In this document: positions 16,980-32,637 of the stretch, in pieces
Numbering within the stretch: position 1 is the first letter of the stretch
Layout of the letters: the number at the start of each line of letters is the position of its first letter
Made by a program: the position numbers and the translations under genes
The notes under the pieces: model-generated
Databases searched by the model: none
What the model saw: only the letters and a program-made list of their open reading frames with translations
Told to the model about the DNA's origin: nothing
Source of the DNA: Gemmatimonadales bacterium
Lineage (GTDB): Bacteria; Gemmatimonadota; Gemmatimonadetes; Gemmatimonadales; GWC2-71-9
Reading direction: 5' to 3'
DNA length: 33,967 nucleotides
Assembly: GCA_025928955.1 (NCBI GenBank)
Contig: JAICNA010000005.1
Coordinates: 1 to 33,967, forward strand

Positions 16980-18473
16980 ATGACCTCCCATGCCGCCCCG
17001 CTGATCGTCGGTGCAGGAATCGCCGGGCTCTGGACGGCGTGGCGGCTGTCGGTCGAGGGGCGCGGGTCGGTCGTCCTCACCAAGTGCGCCCTCTCCGACA
17101 GCGCGAGCGCCTGGGCGCAGGGCGGCATCGCCGTCGCCCTCTCGCCCGGGGACAGCCCGGCCGAGCACGCGGCGGACACGATGGCGGCGGGGCGCGGGTT
17201 GTCGGACCCGGAAGCCGTCCGTGTCCTCACCACCGAAGGTCCCGACCGGATCCGTGAGCTCCTGGCGCTCGGCGCGCGGTTCGACGTCGCGACGGATGGC
17301 CGGCTCCGGTTCGGGCTCGAGGCGGCGCACACGCGTCCCCGGATCATCCATGCCGGCGGCGACCGGACGGGCGCAGTGCTGGTGAGCACGCTCGTCGAGA
17401 TCATCCGGGCCGATCCGGCGGTCGAGATCGTCGAGTATGCCGAGGTGCGCGAGCTGCTCGAGCTCGACGGTCGCATCGCCGGGGTGCGCATCGTGCGGCG
17501 GAACGGCAGGGTGGAAGAGCGGTGGGGTCCCGCCGTGGTGCTCGCGACGGGGGGCGTGGGGCAGCTCTTCGAAACGACGACGAATCCCCTCGTGGCCACC
17601 GGCGACGGTTGGGCGCTGGCGTACCATGCCGGTGCCGAGCTGCGGGACCTCGAGTTCCTCCAGTTCCATCCCACGGCGCTCAGGCTGCCTGGCGTGAATC
17701 CGGCGCCGCTCATTTCGGAAGCGGTCCGCGGCGCTGGCGCCGTTCTCGTGGACGCCGGCGGGCGCCGCTTCATGGTGGAGCTCGATCCCCGGGCAGAGCT
17801 TGCGCCGCGGGACGTCGTGGCGCGCGCAGTTGCCGATGCCGAGGGTGGTGCGTGGCTGGACGCACGCGAGGTGCCCGATTTCGCCGCGACGTTTCCCGGC
17901 ATCACCGCGATGCTCGCGACGCACGGTCTCGATGCCTCGCGCGATCTCCTCCCCGTTGCGCCGGCCCTGCATTACGCGATGGGGGGCATCAGCACCGATC
18001 TCGACGGACGCACCACACGCACCGGCCTGTGGGCGGCCGGCGAAGTCGCCTCGACCGGGGTGCACGGCGCGAACCGTCTCGCGTCCAACTCGCTCCTGGA
18101 GGGGCTCGTGTTCGCCGACCGGGTGGCGCGCGAGATCGTGGGGGAGCCGCCGGTCACCGTCGCCGCCGAGGAGCGCGAGTCGCTTTCACCGGATGATCCG
18201 GCACCGGACCGCGCCGCCGAGCCGGTGCGGGCGGAGATGCGCCGCGTGATGTCGGCGAATGTGGGCGTCGTGCGGAGCGAAGAGTCGCTGCGGGAGGCCG
18301 AACGCGAGCTGCTCCGCCTCAAGTCGGCCACGCCGAGGCAGGCATGGCGGACGGCGAACCAGCTCCTCGTTGCCCGGCTCATCGCCCGAGCCGCTCTCGA
18401 GCGACGCGAGACGCGGGGCGGCCATGCGCGAACCGATTTTCCCGAGCCGCTTCCGACTACCGAAGGCGCCTGA
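16980..18473 (+). CDS. nadB: L-aspartate oxidase
   Basis: This 497-residue FAD enzyme oxidises L-aspartate to iminoaspartate, the first step of de novo NAD synthesis. The FAD site LIVGAGIAGLWTAWRLS is at the N-terminus, followed by SASAWAQGGIA and AAHTRPRIIHAGGDRTG, which matches the NadB active-site region. Later come LEFLQFHPTAL, the FAD-binding MGGISTDLDGRT and GANRLASNSLLEGLVFADR, whose arginine is the family's substrate base. The C-terminal helical domain is present, so the length is complete. The ATG at 16980 follows a -10 box directly; a start at 16959 would place seven extra residues over the promoter. Its TGA overlaps the nadA ATG by one base (TGATG). The product passes to NadA in the same operon. 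Confidence 0.96.
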   Translation: MTSHAAPLIVGAGIAGLWTAWRLSVEGRGSVVLTKCALSDSASAWAQGGIAVALSPGDSPAEHAADTMAAGRGLSDPEAVRVLTTEGPDRIRELLALGARFDVATDGRLRFGLEAAHTRPRIIHAGGDRTGAVLVSTLVEIIRADPAVEIVEYAEVRELLELDGRIAGVRIVRRNGRVEERWGPAVVLATGGVGQLFETTTNPLVATGDGWALAYHAGAELRDLEFLQFHPTALRLPGVNPAPLISEAVRGAGAVLVDAGGRRFMVELDPRAELAPRDVVARAVADAEGGAWLDAREVPDFAATFPGITAMLATHGLDASRDLLPVAPALHYAMGGISTDLDGRTTRTGLWAAGEVASTGVHGANRLASNSLLEGLVFADRVAREIVGEPPVTVAAEERESLSPDDPAPDRAAEPVRAEMRRVMSANVGVVRSEESLREAERELLRLKSATPRQAWRTANQLLVARLIARAALERRETRGGHARTDFPEPLPTTEGA

Positions 18474-19486: not shown

Positions 19487-20348
19487 GCGCACGCAGCTGA
19501 CGGAAGCCGCGCACCGCATCGCGCGCCTGGCCGTCGAGGAAGACGGCCGGGAGGACATCACGTCGCTCATCGCCGTTGCCAAGGGCACGCGCGCCGAGGC
19601 GCGCATCGAGTGCCGGTCGGGCGGCGTCGCGGCGGGACTCGTGTTCGCGGATGCCGTGGCCGAGGTGTGCAGTACGCGGCCGGCCGACTGGCAGGTTCGC
19701 GAGGGGGACGAGGTGGCGGCGGGGACGGTGCTCGGGACGATGAGCGGTGACCTCGCGCGCCTCCTCCGGGCGGAGCGGCCCATGCTCAACATCCTGCAGC
19801 GCGCGGTCGGGATCGCGACCGCGACGCGCGCCTACGTGGACGCCGTCCGGGGAACGAGCTGCCGCGTTCTCCATACGCGGAAAACGGCCCCGGGGCTGCG
19901 CGCCCTCGACATCGCCGCGGTGCTCGCCGGAGGCGGCGCGGCGCATCGTGCCGACCTGGCGCGGACAGTGATGGTCAAGGACAATCACTGGCGCGCGCTC
20001 GAGCTCGCCGGCCGGACGCTCGCCGACGCGCTGGCCGATGCGCGGCGGCGGAAGGTCGAGGGGCTGCAGGTCGAAGTCGAGACGGCGGAGCAGGTGGAAT
20101 CTGCCTGCCTTGCCGGCGCGACGCGGCTCCTCGTCGACAACCAGCTCCCGGCCACCGTCGCCGACTGGGCGGCGCGCGCCCGCGCCCTCTCGCCCGGCAT
20201 CGAGATCGAGGCGACCGGCGGGATCACGCTCTCGAACGTGCGCGAGTATGCCGATGCCGGCGCCGATTACGTTTCGATCGGCGCGCTCACCCACAGCGTC
20301 AGTGCCGGCGACGTCGCGATCGAGATCACCGACGGCGCCGCTCCCTGA
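19479..20348 (+). CDS. nadC: Nicotinate-nucleotide pyrophosphorylase (quinolinate phosphoribosyltransferase)
   Basis: This 289-residue enzyme joins quinolinate to phosphoribosyl pyrophosphate with loss of CO2, giving nicotinate mononucleotide and finishing the NadB-NadA-NadC branch. The N-terminal half holds REDITSLI and LNILQRAVGIATATR. The barrel holds HTRKTAPGLRALDIAAVLAGGG, with the RKT and GGG motifs that bind quinolinate and PRPP, then VMVKDNH, EVETAEQVESA and EATGGITLSNVREYADAG. The GTG start at 19479 lies nine bases after GGAGG inside the 3' end of nadA, an 8-bp overlap. Length is typical. The ETF-QO gene follows after 17 bp and may be part of the same transcript. Confidence 0.95.
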   Translation: MTKRTQLTEAAHRIARLAVEEDGREDITSLIAVAKGTRAEARIECRSGGVAAGLVFADAVAEVCSTRPADWQVREGDEVAAGTVLGTMSGDLARLLRAERPMLNILQRAVGIATATRAYVDAVRGTSCRVLHTRKTAPGLRALDIAAVLAGGGAAHRADLARTVMVKDNHWRALELAGRTLADALADARRRKVEGLQVEVETAEQVESACLAGATRLLVDNQLPATVADWAARARALSPGIEIEATGGITLSNVREYADAGADYVSIGALTHSVSAGDVAIEITDGAAP

Positions 20349-27429: not shown

Positions 27430-28365
27430 TCACCCCGCCACCCGTGCCTCCCGCCGCGTCTTCCGGAGCGACAGCAGTACGCCCGTGGTGAGCGCGGTAA
27501 TGATGAACCCGAGCGAGAGCAGGGTCGGGAGGTGGACCCAGTTGCTCGCGATCATCTTGATCCCGACGAAGATCAGGATCACGGCGATGGCCGGCTTCAG
27601 GTAATCGAACCGGTGCATCATGTCCGCCAGCACGAAGAAGAGCGCGCGCAGGCCGAGAATCGCGAAGATGTTCGAGGTGTAGACGATGAAGGGGTCCCGC
27701 GTCACGGCAAAGACCGCCGGGATCGAGTCGATGGCGAAGACCAGGTCGGTCCACTCGACGACGAGGAGGACCAGGAACAGCGGGGTGGCCATCAGCGTGC
27801 CGCGGAGCGAGCGCACGAAGAAGTGCTGTCCCGAGTAGGTATCGGTGAACGGGAGGATCCGCCGCGCGAGGCGGACGATCGGGTTCCGCTCCGGCTCGAT
27901 GCGCTCTTCCTTCGACGAGAACATGTGGAAACCGGTATAGACCAGGATCCCGCCGAAGACGTAGATGATCCAGGTGAAGCGCTCGAGCAGGAGCGCGCCC
28001 GCGAGGATCATGATCAGCCGCATGATGATCGCGCCGAGGATGCCCCACTTCAGGACCCGCGGTTGGAGCTCCGGCGGCACGCCGAAATACTGGAAGACGA
28101 GAATGAAGACGAAGAGGTTGTCGACGCTGAGGCTCAGCTCGATCAGGTATCCCGTATAGTACTCGAGGGCCGACTTCGGGCCCTCGCGCAGGAGGAGGAA
28201 GACGCCGAAGAGGAGCGCGAGCGCGACGATGCTGCCGCTCCAGCGGAGCGCCTCGCGCATCGAGAGCACGTGGGAATGCCGATTCAGGACGGCGAGGTCG
28301 AGGATCAGGAGCACCGCGACCGCGCCGCTGAACCCGAGCCAGACGCTCAGGCTGTGATCGCCCAC
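27430..28365 (-). CDS. TerC/Alx-family membrane protein
   Basis: This 311-residue protein has about nine membrane helices. The Alx-type opening (DHSLSVWLGFSGAVAVLLILDLAVLNRH) is followed by ELSLSVDNLFVFILVFQYFGVP and VEWTDLVFAIDSIPAVFAVTRDPFIVYTSNIFAILGLRALFF, which hold the acidic residues thought to coordinate Mn2+. This is the longer Alx class, distinct from the 248-residue TerC at 16157-16903. Members export Mn2+ or help metal supply to secreted proteins, and many are controlled by yybP-ykoY riboswitches. The GTG start at 28365 follows the htpX stop with no gap (TAG then GTG), so translation is coupled to htpX and both lie under the riboswitch upstream. Mn2+ specificity is inferred from that riboswitch. 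Confidence 0.93.
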   Translation of the reverse strand: MGDHSLSVWLGFSGAVAVLLILDLAVLNRHSHVLSMREALRWSGSIVALALLFGVFLLLREGPKSALEYYTGYLIELSLSVDNLFVFILVFQYFGVPPELQPRVLKWGILGAIIMRLIMILAGALLLERFTWIIYVFGGILVYTGFHMFSSKEERIEPERNPIVRLARRILPFTDTYSGQHFFVRSLRGTLMATPLFLVLLVVEWTDLVFAIDSIPAVFAVTRDPFIVYTSNIFAILGLRALFFVLADMMHRFDYLKPAIAVILIFVGIKMIASNWVHLPTLLSLGFIITALTTGVLLSLRKTRREARVAG

Positions 28366-29205
28366 CTATCTGCCCGCGGCCATGGCCTCGAGCCGAGCGA
28401 CACGCTCCGACGTCGGCGGATGGGTGCTGAAGAGCTTCGCGACGCCGCCGCCGTGGGCGGCCAGCGGGTTCACCTGGGCGAGGGGTGCGGCCGCGGGCGC
28501 CACGTGCATCGGAATGCGCCGCGACATCGCATCCAGACGCTCGAGCGCACGCGCGAGCGGCAGCGGCCGCCCGAGGATCAGCGCGCCCACGCGGTCGGCC
28601 TCGAACTCGCGCTGGCGCGAGACGGCGAACTGGATCAGCATTGCCCCGATCGGCGCGAGGAGGATCAGCGCGAGCTGGGCGAACGGGTGGCCCCCCTCGT
28701 CGTCTCCCCCGCCGCCGAACATCAGCAGGTACGGCAGGTTCGAGAGCGCACCGGCGATGCCCGCCGCGATCGTCGAGATGAGCATGTCACGGTTCTTGAT
28801 GTGGGCGAGCTCGTGCGCGATCACGCCCTCGAGCTCGTCTGCCGGCATCTGCTTGAGAATGCCGGTGGTGACCGCAACGACGGCGCGCTCCGGGCTCCGG
28901 CCGGTCGCGAAGGCGTTCGGCTGCTCGTGGGGAGCGATGGCCACGACCGGCATCGGGAGGCCGGCCCGCTGGCGCAGCCGGTCCACCATCCGGTACAGCT
29001 CGGGCGCCTGCGCTTCGGTGACGACCTGGGCGCGGTACATCTTCAGGACCAGGCGGTCCGAGAAGAAGTACATGATGAAGTTGAATGCCCCGCCGATGAT
29101 CAGGGCCATGATGAGCCCGTTCGACCCGCCGAGCAGCTGCCCGACGAGGAGAAAGAGGCCCATCAGTCCCGCCATCAGGACGAAGGTCTTCACGTTGTTG
29201 TGCAT
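28366..29205 (-). CDS. htpX: M48-family membrane metalloprotease HtpX
   Basis: This 279-residue zinc protease of the cytoplasmic membrane degrades misfolded membrane proteins. Two hydrophobic helices open the protein (residues ~7-26 and 30-48). The active site is IAHELAH (H131, E132, H135), with the third zinc ligand in the SRQREFEADR segment. A second membrane pair (ISTIAAGIAGALSNLPYLLMF and FAQLALILLAPIGAMLIQFAV) lies between. The end, LFSTHPPTSERVARLEAMA, is the family tail. The ATG at 29205, after AGGAGCAGGAGCCAG, is chosen; the frame extends 33 bases farther but without a good start. Its leader carries the Mn2+ riboswitch and terminator (29241-29404), and it is followed without a gap by terC. 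Control of a protease by this riboswitch is unusual. Confidence 0.95.
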   Translation of the reverse strand: MHNNVKTFVLMAGLMGLFLLVGQLLGGSNGLIMALIIGGAFNFIMYFFSDRLVLKMYRAQVVTEAQAPELYRMVDRLRQRAGLPMPVVAIAPHEQPNAFATGRSPERAVVAVTTGILKQMPADELEGVIAHELAHIKNRDMLISTIAAGIAGALSNLPYLLMFGGGGDDEGGHPFAQLALILLAPIGAMLIQFAVSRQREFEADRVGALILGRPLPLARALERLDAMSRRIPMHVAPAAAPLAQVNPLAAHGGGVAKLFSTHPPTSERVARLEAMAAGR

Positions 29206-29236
29206 CTGGCTCCTGCTCCTGCGTTGGCTGCATGAC

Positions 29237-29288
29237 AAAAGCGAGACCTTCGTCCCGCTGCCATGGCAGCGCCGGACGAAGGTCTCGC
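29237..29288 (-). terminator. Intrinsic terminator, expression platform of the riboswitch
   Basis: On the minus strand GCGAGACCTTCGTCC (29288-29274) pairs perfectly with GGACGAAGGTCTCGC (29255-29241). The inside of the stem is the 16-bp palindrome CGCTGCCATGGCAGCG (29271-29256). TTTT (29240-29237) follows at once. The 5' arm contains the CCTTC that can alternatively close the aptamer's first stem, so metal binding would prevent termination. It lies 32 bases upstream of htpX. Confidence 0.88.
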
Positions 29289-29404
29289 TCTGATGTCGGA
29301 GGCTGGTCCCTCCTCGTCCCGGCCGGACCGTGCCCGCCTGGGCGGACAGTCTTGACGATCCGGCCGTCCGCCGGCTGTCGGCGGACGAGCTACTCCCCTT
29401 CTCT
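29274..29404 (-). ncRNA. yybP-ykoY (Mn2+) riboswitch aptamer
   Basis: Read on the minus strand, the leader opens with AGAGAAGGGGAGTAGC (29404-29389), the hallmark 5' element of yybP-ykoY RNAs. It continues through several strong G+C stems (GTCCGCCGACAGCCGGCGGAC near 29384-29364 and CGTCAAGAC further on), then GACCAGCCT, and ends in GCGAGACCTTC (29288-29278). GAAGG of the opening can pair with CCTTC at the end to close stem P1. These RNAs sense Mn2+ and switch genes on; typical targets are TerC/Alx and MntP. The genes below are htpX and an Alx-type terC, which fits. Identified by eye from motif and context; no covariance search was run. Confidence 0.82.
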
Positions 29405-29412
29405 TGGCCTGA

Positions 29413-29441
29413 ATTCTAGCAGGCCGGGTTCGCCGAATCAA
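29413..29441 (-). promoter_or_regulatory. Promoter of the riboswitch-htpX-terC operon
   Basis: On the minus strand TTGATT (29441-29436), a 17-bp spacer and TAGAAT (29418-29413) form a good sigma-70-type promoter. Transcription would start near 29406, two bases before the riboswitch's opening motif. The -35 box overlaps the stop codon of the upstream HD gene. Confidence 0.75.
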
Positions 29442-30076
29442 TCCGCGGCAGCGGCGGGCATGGCCTCGAGCAGGGCCAGCGCGCCCGTGATGTTCGCGCG
29501 CGCCTGCGCCTCGTACCGCTCGCGGAAGGCATCGGTATGGTAGATGGTGGGGCGGGCGAGGAACGAGCGGAGCACCGCGGCGCGGCCGGACCGGTACTCC
29601 GCGTCGGGAAGCGCGTGGAACTCCCGGCGGATCGCGCGGTCGTAGATGCCGAACCGGTACGGGTCGGCACCGAGGATCGCGAGATCGATGTCGGCCAGGA
29701 TCCGTGCATCGTTGCCATGCGGGATGGCGGTGTGGCGCGTGGCCAGCACGAGCGACCGGACTCGATCCTTCACCGGCCCCGCGACTCCTCCCGCCGAAAG
29801 CGCCTGGTCGGCGAGCGCAGCGCTCGCCTCCTCATTGTCGGCGCGGCCGGGGACATAGACGGCGTCGTGGAACCAGATGGCGACCTCGATCTCATCCGGG
29901 CGCTCCGCGTCGTCGTGCACGCGATCGAGCTCCTTCAGGCACTCGGCGATATGCGAGATGACGTGATACTGCCGCCACGGCTCGGCGTAGCGCGCGATCA
30001 GCTCGCGGTGGAGCGCCGCCGCATTCGATCCGGCGCCGATCCGGCGCCAGAGGGCACGGAAGCGCCGGATCTTCAG
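29438..30076 (-). CDS. HD-superfamily phosphohydrolase, non-canonical start
   Basis: This predicted 212-residue metal-dependent phosphohydrolase has an N-terminal RFRALWRRIGAGSNAAALH, RYAEPWRQYHVISHIAECL with the first metal histidines, AIWFHDAVYVPGRADNEE with the HD pair, and LATRHTAIPHGNDARILADIDLAILG with further ligands. The set matches small HD proteins of about 200 residues. No ATG, GTG or TTG exists in frame before the conserved N-terminus. The frame is closed by TGA at 30118, and only CTG at 30076 (overlapping the upstream TGA as CTGA) or ATT at 30079 fit. The GTG at 29920 would remove about 50 conserved residues. Translation by coupling from the upstream gene is the likely explanation; a sequencing error is the alternative. 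The substrate is unknown. Confidence 0.8.
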   Translation of the reverse strand: MKIRRFRALWRRIGAGSNAAALHRELIARYAEPWRQYHVISHIAECLKELDRVHDDAERPDEIEVAIWFHDAVYVPGRADNEEASAALADQALSAGGVAGPVKDRVRSLVLATRHTAIPHGNDARILADIDLAILGADPYRFGIYDRAIRREFHALPDAEYRSGRAAVLRSFLARPTIYHTDAFRERYEAQARANITGALALLEAMPAAAAD

Positions 30077-32637
30077 AATGTGAAGCCGAGCTCGATGTAG
30101 ACACCGGTGCGCTCGTCACTGTCGGCCAGCGTCACGCTGAGCACGCCGGCCGGGCGGTCGAGGCCGAGCGAGAACCCGCCGCCGAACGCATGGTGCCAGT
30201 CGTCGGAGTCCTCGCCTTCCGACCAGACGCGTCCGGCATCGGCGATGCCGTGCACGCCGAACTCGAGCGGCACGAGGAAATTCACGTCGAACAGCGCGAG
30301 GCGCAGCTCGGCGCCGCCGTAGGCCATCGCATCGCCGGCGAACCGCTGCTCGTCGAACCCACGGAGGGTGGTGACGCCACCGAGGAACGACGACTCGTAG
30401 AACGGAAAGGTACCGAACGCCTTCCGTCCGCCGGCGCGCAGCGCCAGTACGGGCTCGAACGCCGTGCCTGCCGACAGGTAGGTCACCGCGTCGGCGCCGA
30501 GCGTGCCGAACGCCTCGTCGAGATCCCAGGCCGCGGGCCAGGCGGCGCCTTCGAGCGTGAGCCGCACTCCCGATGGCGCGTCGTCCGACTCGCCGCGGGA
30601 ATCCACGCGCCACCGCGCACGGCCACCGACCTGCCCGACATCCCCGGTCCCGTAGGGTGCGCCGCCGGTGAAGGCCGGCTGCGCCGCGTCGGTGCGGGCA
30701 TACTGGACCGCCGGCCCGAGCTCGAAGGTGCCGCCGAGTACGTCCGCCGCCACCATGAGCTCCGCGCCGTACCGCCCATGTTCGATCCGATTGGCCTTCC
30801 CCCCGGCCGTGCGTGCGGTCGCGTTCCCCGGCCCGTACCACCGCAACAGCTCCAGCCCGGACGCCAGCGCGCGGAACGTCGGCCGGAGTCCGCCGCCCTC
30901 GCGGCGGAAATCGGCAGCGATCCGCAACCGCGTGTCGGCCGGGGCCCCCGCGTGATCGAGCTCCACACGGGTGCGCCGGGCATACGGCCAGGTGCGGAAC
31001 GCATACCGGTACATGTCCATGCCGACGCTCGTGACCAGGCCGAGGTCACTGTAGTAGCGGAGGTCGACGAGCGGCGTCGCCTTTCCTCCGCGGTCCGGCA
31101 GCGGCGGAAGCGTATCACCTTCCTCGATGCGCCAGGGGCGGCGGTCGAACAGGGTATCGGGGCCATAGGTGACCTCGACCGGAGGGCCCTCGAACTCGTA
31201 CAGCCGGGCGAGGGCGCCCGTATCGCCGCTCTCGTTCTCTCCTTCACCACCGATCACGCGCACGAGGACCTGCGTGCGCTGCGGACCACTCGCGGCCACG
31301 CTGTCGTTCCCCCCGTGGAGATAGACGCGCACCTCGCTCGTCTGACCGGGCACGAAGCGCCGCGAGAAGTACGGCGCTTCCGACGCGTCAGCCTCCCGTC
31401 CGTCGAGGAGCTCGACGGTCACGGCGCCGTCGTCATGATGCACGACGCGAGCGAGATCGCGCTCGTCGGTGCCGTGGATGTCCACGACCCGCGCCAGCTT
31501 CGAGTAGAACTGCAGCGCCACCGTGCGGAGGCCGTTCCGCCGCGAGATCAGCCGCCCGGCCACGAGCTCTTCACGCTCGGGGCGGTACTCGGGCGGAATC
31601 CGCGCCTCGGCCGCGATGATCGTGCTGTCGGTGATCTGCGCCATGACGAAGGTCGCGATGGAATCCCACGCCGCGCTGTCGAGCGGGGCGAGGATCGCGT
31701 TATCGAGCTCGCGACTGCTCACCGTGAGCCCCTTGAGCGAGATACGCGAGCCGAACGGAATCAGTTTCGGCGCCGCCATGCGCGCGATGCTCGGCAGCAG
31801 GCCATCGAACCAGAAGAGGGCGTTGTCCCGGTCCCGAGGAATCGGCACCCACCACGTCCGCCCGCGGCGTTCGAGCTTGGCCCACCGCCACTGGTCCTTG
31901 TGCCGGTCCCAGTCGTTGATGAGCAGGTCCAGGAGGCGCGCCTTGAGGAAGTCGTGCGCATCGATCCGCACCGCCGGGTCTGCGCGGAGCTCCTCGAGGA
32001 GATCGACGCTGTTGACGATGTCGTCCGAGCCGGCGAAGCCCGGCTTGTCGTCGGGCAGGTTGTCCATGAATTCCTCGATGATGCCGAGCATCCCGGCATA
32101 CTCCGCGCGGAACTCCCCGAGGCGCGGGTCGTCGGGCATGACGGCGAGCTGCGGCTGCGCGTGCAGGATCCCGATGGCCGAGGCGAGCGGGGGCACGACG
32201 AGCGCGCCTCCCGGATGGGCGTGACTGATCTGGTCGTTCACGATCCCGACCAGGAAGGAGTTCCGGAGACCCTCCGGAAGGATCGATCGCGCGTCCTTTG
32301 CCACCGACCGGAACGCCCACTCGCGCCCCACGCCGTTCGCCAGGCGGAGCGATTTCGTCTGGAAGCCGCCGCCCGCTTCCGTGGGGCGCAGGCCACCGTC
32401 GAAGCGGGCCAGATCCAGGACCGGCACCTTGATCGGCTTGACCCAGAGATCGCGATAGCCCGACCCGAAGAAGAAGCGATGCACCGGCCCTGCCGCATGC
32501 CCGCTGTCGGCTGCCGTCACCACCGAATCAGTACCGACACGCGGCGGCGCCTCCAGCCTTGGCTGCTGCGCAACGGCGGACTCGGCGAAGAGCGCCATCG
32601 GGAGGGCAAAGGCCGTGAGCGGGGGGAAGCGTCGCAT
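30073..32637 (-). CDS. Outer-membrane protein: CotH/Fam20-like kinase-type segment fused to an Omp85/BamA-like barrel
   Basis: This 854-residue exported protein starts with a signal peptide (cut after AVA, residue 23). Residues ~90-290 resemble an atypical kinase fold: GGGFQTKSLRL then REWAFRSVAKD (about 106-115), a catalytic-loop-like NDWDRHKDQW (241-250) and a metal-site-like VPIPRDRDNA (264-273, D269 and D271). CotH and Fam20-type kinases carry similar DRH and DxD pairs. A beta-rich linker follows. The C-terminal ~300 residues look like a surface-antigen barrel: repeated beta strands, TTLRGFDEQRFAGD with the RGF motif, GGAELRLALFDV, and a final aromatic residue (ELGFTF). It begins 10 bases after the metallophosphoesterase gene with AGGAAA upstream and overlaps the HD gene. 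Kinase activity is inference; the usual N-terminal POTRA repeats are not recognised. Confidence 0.85.
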   Translation of the reverse strand: MRRFPPLTAFALPMALFAESAVAQQPRLEAPPRVGTDSVVTAADSGHAAGPVHRFFFGSGYRDLWVKPIKVPVLDLARFDGGLRPTEAGGGFQTKSLRLANGVGREWAFRSVAKDARSILPEGLRNSFLVGIVNDQISHAHPGGALVVPPLASAIGILHAQPQLAVMPDDPRLGEFRAEYAGMLGIIEEFMDNLPDDKPGFAGSDDIVNSVDLLEELRADPAVRIDAHDFLKARLLDLLINDWDRHKDQWRWAKLERRGRTWWVPIPRDRDNALFWFDGLLPSIARMAAPKLIPFGSRISLKGLTVSSRELDNAILAPLDSAAWDSIATFVMAQITDSTIIAAEARIPPEYRPEREELVAGRLISRRNGLRTVALQFYSKLARVVDIHGTDERDLARVVHHDDGAVTVELLDGREADASEAPYFSRRFVPGQTSEVRVYLHGGNDSVAASGPQRTQVLVRVIGGEGENESGDTGALARLYEFEGPPVEVTYGPDTLFDRRPWRIEEGDTLPPLPDRGGKATPLVDLRYYSDLGLVTSVGMDMYRYAFRTWPYARRTRVELDHAGAPADTRLRIAADFRREGGGLRPTFRALASGLELLRWYGPGNATARTAGGKANRIEHGRYGAELMVAADVLGGTFELGPAVQYARTDAAQPAFTGGAPYGTGDVGQVGGRARWRVDSRGESDDAPSGVRLTLEGAAWPAAWDLDEAFGTLGADAVTYLSAGTAFEPVLALRAGGRKAFGTFPFYESSFLGGVTTLRGFDEQRFAGDAMAYGGAELRLALFDVNFLVPLEFGVHGIADAGRVWSEGEDSDDWHHAFGGGFSLGLDRPAGVLSVTLADSDERTGVYIELGFTF

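Follow-up and report, generated by a model that had tools for sequence, protein, structure and literature searches.

The leader that precedes htpX and terC on the minus strand of the window (the whole stretch of DNA analysed, 33,967 nucleotides of contig JAICNA010000005.1 from a Gemmatimonadales bacterium) is a member of the yybP-ykoY Mn2+ riboswitch class, and riboswitches of this class are kept in front of htpX, the gene for a membrane protease, in three phyla, namely Gemmatimonadota, Nitrospirota, and Actinomycetota. Mn2+ binding and Mn2+-dependent expression are inferred from the class. The RNA class and the protein families are known; the novelty, as far as the open-access literature searched shows, lies in Mn2+ riboswitch and htpX being paired repeatedly. 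No paper tying the riboswitch to htpX was found in that literature, and the target survey of Dambach et al. 2015 was outside its scope, leaving a mention in a table possible.

Organization of the Locus and Class of the Leader

The minus strand carries, in order, a promoter (29441-29413), the leader (29404-29275), a terminator (29291-29237), htpX (29205-28366), and terC (28365-27430). The promoter, TTGATT-17-TAGAAT of the sigma-70 type, was the sole promoter-like site in a 3 kb scan (0.2 expected); the original prediction of this promoter held, with an extended -10 (TGn before the -10) to be added. A promoter of the form TTGA-N(19-22)-TAnnnT lies just 5' of 17 of the 28 riboswitch copies in the window's family, where shuffled sequences would give 0.1. 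The first gene encodes a 279-aa M48 membrane zinc metalloprotease (Pfam PF01435, 3e-35), in which alignment showed the HELAH motif and the downstream Glu (RQREFEAD) to be intact. It matched the NCBIfam HtpX model PRK03001 over the full model length (344.7 bits, 3.6e-103) without reaching the model cut-off of 369. Membership of the HtpX family is met by the M48 domain, the HExxH motif with its downstream Glu, and the full-length HtpX-type match. The start codon is ATG 29205, as the alignment with relatives begins at the residues NNVK just behind it; TTG 29238 was rejected as a start, since it sits within the terminator and is not conserved. The second gene encodes a 311-aa TerC protein (Pfam PF03741, 1.4e-53) of the Alx subfamily, as shown by its match to NCBIfam TIGR03718 R_switched_Alx (400.2 bits, cut-off 246.4), and its GTG start at 28365 is the base immediately after the htpX stop. 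The predicted control of htpX and an Alx-type terC with zero gap thus held; the interval first noted, 28366-29441, covers promoter to htpX stop, and terC extends to 27430. A 160-aa ORF without a Pfam family (29438-29920, minus strand) ends right at the riboswitch promoter, and upstream of it lies the gene of a large protein whose C-terminal domain belongs to the Omp85 superfamily (30073-32637, minus strand).

A match to Rfam RF00080 had been proposed as a check of the class, and it did not reach the cut-off. The model aligned in full and at the correct place on a 154-nt stretch, with 9.3 bits against a gathering cut-off of 45 bits (E 0.74 over 4227 families; with RF00080 taken alone, about 2e-4); this match surfaced in the 154-nt search only, with none on 351 nt either at gathering or at E<=10. 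RF00080 of Rfam release 15, at gathering, also misses the validated E. coli alx and mntP leaders (L296:4374-4501, L297:3464-3574). Its cut-off therefore does not define the family, and the test is uninformative for the window. The curated model under-detects the yybP-ykoY class and misses a large clade.

A reciprocal search settled the assignment. Homologues found by DNA similarity within the window's family (15 of 61 genomes, the window's own included), together with a few from the wider order, were used to build a model, R1, from Gemmatimonadota only (alignments A1 and A2). Its top two matches in 18 kb were E. coli mntP (35.8 bits, E 7e-8) and alx (35.1 bits, E 1e-7), located directly upstream of these genes, with everything else in the 18 kb far lower. 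The recovery of these validated leaders, together with the conservation of the L1 and L3 metal-site nucleotides, places the window leader in the class, as originally predicted; covariation, described below, supports this too. R1 found the window aptamer with an E of 3e-27 in the whole genome (the window sequence was part of R1), and a further model, R2, gave it 102 bits. Matches of the leader stretch to miRNA, sRNA, and RAGATH families were rejected as chance matches of long hairpins, and weak R2 matches elsewhere in the window (20188-20287, 17920-17960) were also taken as chance.

Aptamer, Terminator, and Predicted Switching

The aptamer (29404-29275) comprises P1.1, L1, P1.2, P2, P3 with L3, and P4, and the full leader folds with a z of -7.5 over 172 nt. 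The 5' strand of the switch helix P1.1, GAAGG (29401-29397), opens the stretch GAAGGGGAGTAGC, which begins at 29401, and pairs with CCTTC (29282-29278), the end of GAGCGAGACCTTC (29290-29278). For the L1 metal-site loop GGAGUA (29396-29391), the stretch GGGGAGTAG is invariant in alignment A2; this loop holds an A that makes a cross-helix A-minor contact (PMC6754395). In the L3 metal-site arm GATCGTCAAGACTG (29360-29347), TCGTCA is invariant in the 16 sequences of A2, and A29353 is inferred from its sequence context to be the counterpart of the invariable Mn2+-sensing A (A41 in L. lactis, A48 in X. oryzae), the L3 adenosine seen in crystal structures to contact Mn2+ (PMC6754395). The L1 motif GGGGAGUAG, CGUCA in L3, and the 3' motif GCGAGACC are conserved, with the key nucleotides of L1 and L3 kept in most further copies.

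The structure was assessed in a 72-sequence alignment of Gemmatimonadota, Nitrospirota, one actinobacterium, and E. coli. The covariation score was 0.555, compared with 0.167 +/- 0.008 after shuffling and 0.04-0.09 (max 0.086) with pairing partners slid; both sides were changed in 27 of the 31 pairs, and 93.6% of cells were paired. P1.1 was paired in 98.3%, with both sides changed in four of its five pairs. Because this alignment was fitted to the structure of R1, its exact figures are biased toward that structure; double changes were already present in 18 of 31 pairs in alignment A1, which was not fitted to a structure. Class membership is thus met structurally, P1.1, P1.2, and P3 being backed by covariation and P1.1 competing with the expression platform. 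Compared with known members of the class (RF00080; E. coli alx/mntP, L. lactis, X. oryzae, B. subtilis), the leader has the same L1, L3, and 3' motifs, the same P1.1/P1.2/P3 core, and an Alx-type terC downstream. It differs in that its first gene encodes a membrane protease rather than a transporter, and in that its clade lies far under the Rfam cut-off.

The intrinsic terminator (29291-29237) is a hairpin followed by UUUU whose left arm overlaps the 3' strands of P1.2 and P1.1. The prediction of a perfect 15-bp hairpin held in part: the GC-rich 15 bp are perfect, but the stem is longer, with 18 outer pairs (29291-29274 with 29255-29237) and, after a 2-nt bulge, an inner 6-bp hairpin (-44 kcal/mol, z -8.2). 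When the leader was folded truncated before the right arm of the terminator, P1.1 formed; in the full leader the terminator formed and P1.1 was lost. Folding thus bears out the earlier suggestion that the two structures exclude each other through their common CCUUC. The same doubling of the P1.1 3' strand as a terminator strand is found in the L. lactis riboswitch, where Mn2+ stabilises P1.1 and blocks the same strand exchange, leading to read-through (PMC11087558). In the Nitrospirota homologues examined, the P1.1 3' strand finds a 12/12 pairing partner in a downstream arm, after which a T-tract nearly always follows. A terminator-type downstream arm is present in most copies of Gemmatimonadota family f1, slightly bulged in some; in family f2, many copies have no clear U-tract. 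Given these f2 copies and the window's U-tract of only four, the strength of termination is uncertain.

The whole account, a Mn2+ transcriptional ON-switch for htpX-terC whose products act together at the membrane, is likely. The element, its structure and class, the terminator overlap, the operon, and the conservation of the operon are shown. The Mn2+ response is inferred from the class, there being no Mn2+ binding or expression data for any such leader, and the ON direction (read-through at high Mn2+) is inferred from the anatomy and by analogy with L. lactis. The nascent leader would fold into a four-way-junction aptamer (P1.1/P1.2, P2, P3-L3, P4); Mn2+ bound between L1 and L3 would stabilise P1.1 and hold back CCUUC, and with this strand sequestered the terminator could not form and polymerase would read into htpX-terC. 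Without Mn2+, the terminator would win. TerC, of the Alx type, may then export Mn2+ and/or deliver it at the Sec translocon, and HtpX may degrade membrane or translocating proteins that fail in Mn2+ excess.

htpX as a Recurrent Riboswitch Target

Searches with R1 found riboswitch homologues in 71 of the 288 genomes of the window's order; with the fold z and the R1 E value given above, this sets the element well apart from chance. The original prediction had proposed a survey of the riboswitch-htpX-terC order in related genomes; it is kept in 19 family f1 genomes besides the window, with a zero htpX-terC gap in many. Across the sampled phylum, 105 Gemmatimonadota copies with the key nucleotides were counted, and weak model matches without them (L146, L159, L183, L184, L185) were excluded. 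The first gene was htpX in 52 copies and terC in 31, the remainder being other genes or contig ends, which makes htpX the commonest first gene of the riboswitch in sampled Gemmatimonadota. The suggestion that it is unusual for a protease gene to come first is therefore true of the literature that could be searched, but in nature the arrangement is recurrent.

One alternative is that htpX is a passenger inserted between terC and the riboswitch of terC. In its favour, terC is a classical target, and the switch lies directly 5' of terC in two genomes of the same family (G052, G003) and in many others. Against it, 28 of the 52 htpX-first copies do not have terC next (19 do, and in five the retrieved sequence stops too early to tell), and there are also 14 htpX cases in Nitrospirota. 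In addition, four genomes (G086, G392, G400, G442) have two distinct switches, one for htpX and one for terC, and at one locus (L218) riboswitch-terC is followed directly by riboswitch-htpX. These stand-alone loci and separate switches within one genome indicate that the switch targets htpX independently of terC. The passenger account is refuted by them as a general explanation, and it is all but excluded overall, remaining conceivable for single genomes only.

The link between riboswitch and htpX can be lost. Among HtpX proteins of the family at least 63% identical to that of the window, three (G008, G029, G017; 74-79% identical) come from genomes in which neither the riboswitch nor an adjacent terC was found. 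A decayed riboswitch was observed 5' of terC in G003 (L045:5580-5645), with an altered L1 (ACGGGAGTAG) and the whole P3/L3 arm missing; it retains the P1 strands and the terminator, a natural sensor loss before terC. Elsewhere, two divergent copies lie about 190 nt apart (L134/L133; G260:C159:2491-2614 minus, 2803-2933 plus).

Outside Gemmatimonadota, the riboswitch was found in 35 of 246 sampled Nitrospirota genomes, with htpX next in 14 of the 33 copies examined (two of these genomes may be near-copies). The construction of model R2 had included three Nitrospirota-type htpX leaders. The search for HtpX relatives in named genomes placed the window's lineage in Gemmatimonadota, and it returned riboswitch-htpX at the Nitrospirota loci L223 and L230, and also at L227, whose HtpX groups with those. 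Two Actinomycetota lineages have the arrangement, L269 and L289, the latter as riboswitch-htpX-terC; L269, in which the GGGGAGUAG motif is missing, is the weakest of the cases. The L289 record is titled as a Bifidobacterium breve MAG, but its HtpX groups with Acidimicrobiia and the species name looks wrong; base pairing between CUUUCGAC of its leader and GUCGAAAG close to the start codon is possible, which suggests translational control. Among the 80 HtpX loci, the riboswitch was present in none of the betaproteobacterial ones. Mapped onto a tree of 124 HtpX proteins, the presence of the riboswitch required 10 changes, with at least six of them forced by well-supported branches, so gains or losses have been repeated. 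The tree was a quick one with many weak inner branches, and the number of independent gains is not settled by it.

Envelope Targets and the Possible Role of HtpX at High Manganese

Other genes behind the riboswitch were also identified. In one genus (g47, family f2), seven genomes have a second copy 5' of an SPFH/Band_7 lipoprotein gene (Pfam 4e-28; L131, L136, L138, L139, L147, L148, L154). The best NCBIfam match of this lipoprotein is HflK (1e-6, under cut-off); HflK/C modulate FtsH. The key nucleotides are intact in most of these copies, and the terminator arm pairs in 10-11 of 12 positions. Two genomes of the same genus have an OmpH/Skp-type gene behind the riboswitch (L151, L157). Nitrospirota targets also include P-type ATPases, beta-carbonic anhydrase (L330, L333, L336, L308), UPF0182 (L310, L314), a Zn-ribbon protein of the TFIIB type (L324, L325, L334), and UPF0114 (L315), and the overlap of P1.1 with the terminator is perfect in all the unusual ones. 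Within the actinobacterial class the genes behind the switch also include TerC, GDT1/UPF0016, and P-type ATPases. Further unusual genes lie directly behind the riboswitch in Gemmatimonadota, those of an unknown protein without a Pfam match (QQTVINAPS...; L149, L155), of an SNF-type symporter (L144, L152), and of Usp (L119).

Such diversity could be taken to mean that this RNA, as a yybP-ykoY variant, is specific for some other divalent metal and that the genes do not form a Mn2+ regulon. A review does expect specificity variants among yybP RNAs (PMC7266159), and carbonic anhydrase, the Zn-ribbon protein, OmpH, and SPFH are unusual targets. Against this, the L1 stretch and the L3 stretch with the sensing adenosine are unchanged, and the same RNA also precedes classical Mn2+ targets (Alx-type TerC, GDT1/UPF0016, P-type ATPases), in part within the same genomes. 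This alternative is very unlikely.

The best reading is that TerC and envelope proteostasis factors are induced jointly at high Mn2+, with Mn2+ binding inferred and the substrates of HtpX hypothetical. In B. subtilis, HtpX, FtsH, PrsA, and flotillins co-immunoprecipitate with the TerC proteins MeeF/MeeY (He et al. 2023, PMC10550928), and FtsH is essential when MeeF/MeeY are absent (PMC10550928). The riboswitch targets found here (HtpX, SPFH, OmpH, TerC) overlap in kind with this co-purification list. The two systems also have in common the link of TerC and HtpX to manganese and, at the B. subtilis secretosome, the clearing of failed translocation by membrane proteases (PMC10550928). The B. subtilis link is physical, established by co-immunoprecipitation, whereas the loci described here show operon organization and riboswitch control in common, in other phyla. 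The idea that HtpX clears damaged or mismetallated membrane proteins has gained indirect support and is still possible, its substrates being hypothetical. For a joint proteostasis role of HtpX and TerC, inferred from the B. subtilis HtpX-MeeF co-purification and the other switch targets, the arguments for and against are evenly balanced.

The main rival to this reading is that HtpX is induced at high Mn2+ for the removal of one divalent-metal importer (MntH, MgtE, or similar), that is, regulated proteolysis of uptake rather than general quality control. A precedent exists in B. subtilis, where the rhomboid YqgP acts with FtsH to break down MgtE when Mn2+ is high and Mg2+ low, which protects against Mn2+ (PMC7231995); behind the switch, moreover, htpX is often found by itself, with no terC as the next gene. 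On the other side, the genome of the window, whose assembly is only 79% complete, yielded neither an Nramp nor an MgtE domain, and relatives have SPFH and OmpH genes among the targets, which speaks for proteostasis of the envelope in general; the importer explanation is judged unlikely. The YqgP-FtsH-MgtE system is still a close parallel in one respect, membrane proteolysis protecting against excess Mn2+ in both cases, but there Mn2+ activates the rhomboid directly, whereas here it is predicted to induce the synthesis of an M48 protease via an RNA.

A third possibility, that HtpX uses Mn2+ or has its metal loaded by TerC and is made when its cofactor is available, had been raised in part by the original prediction. 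B. subtilis TerC proteins metalate exported and membrane enzymes, HtpX co-purifies with MeeF (PMC10550928), and the HExxH motif and downstream Glu are intact in the window's HtpX. However, riboswitch-htpX without terC next is common, and HtpX is known as a Zn2+ enzyme with a cytoplasmic active site, so no exported metal is needed. No support for metal delivery through TerC was found in the analysis, and this explanation is very unlikely.

Induction of TerC together with envelope proteostasis factors remains the preferred reading. It can be extended to a bolder one, in which Mn2+ riboswitches run an envelope quality-control regulon consisting of HtpX in at least three phyla, SPFH/HflK-like and OmpH/Skp proteins in one genus, and TerC; we lean slightly towards this extension. 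The loci yield a testable prediction, namely that Mn2+ would induce HtpX and that loss of HtpX would be toxic at high Mn2+. Since RF00080 misses a large riboswitch clade, the targets of the class are under-counted. The TerC family is widespread, and whether it serves simple Mn2+ export or protein export is an open question; the loci give independent evolutionary evidence for a TerC-HtpX partnership, in one operon or through separate switches in one genome, across phyla. If the regulon reading is true, membrane proteolysis would be a core and evolutionarily recurrent arm of bacterial manganese homeostasis.
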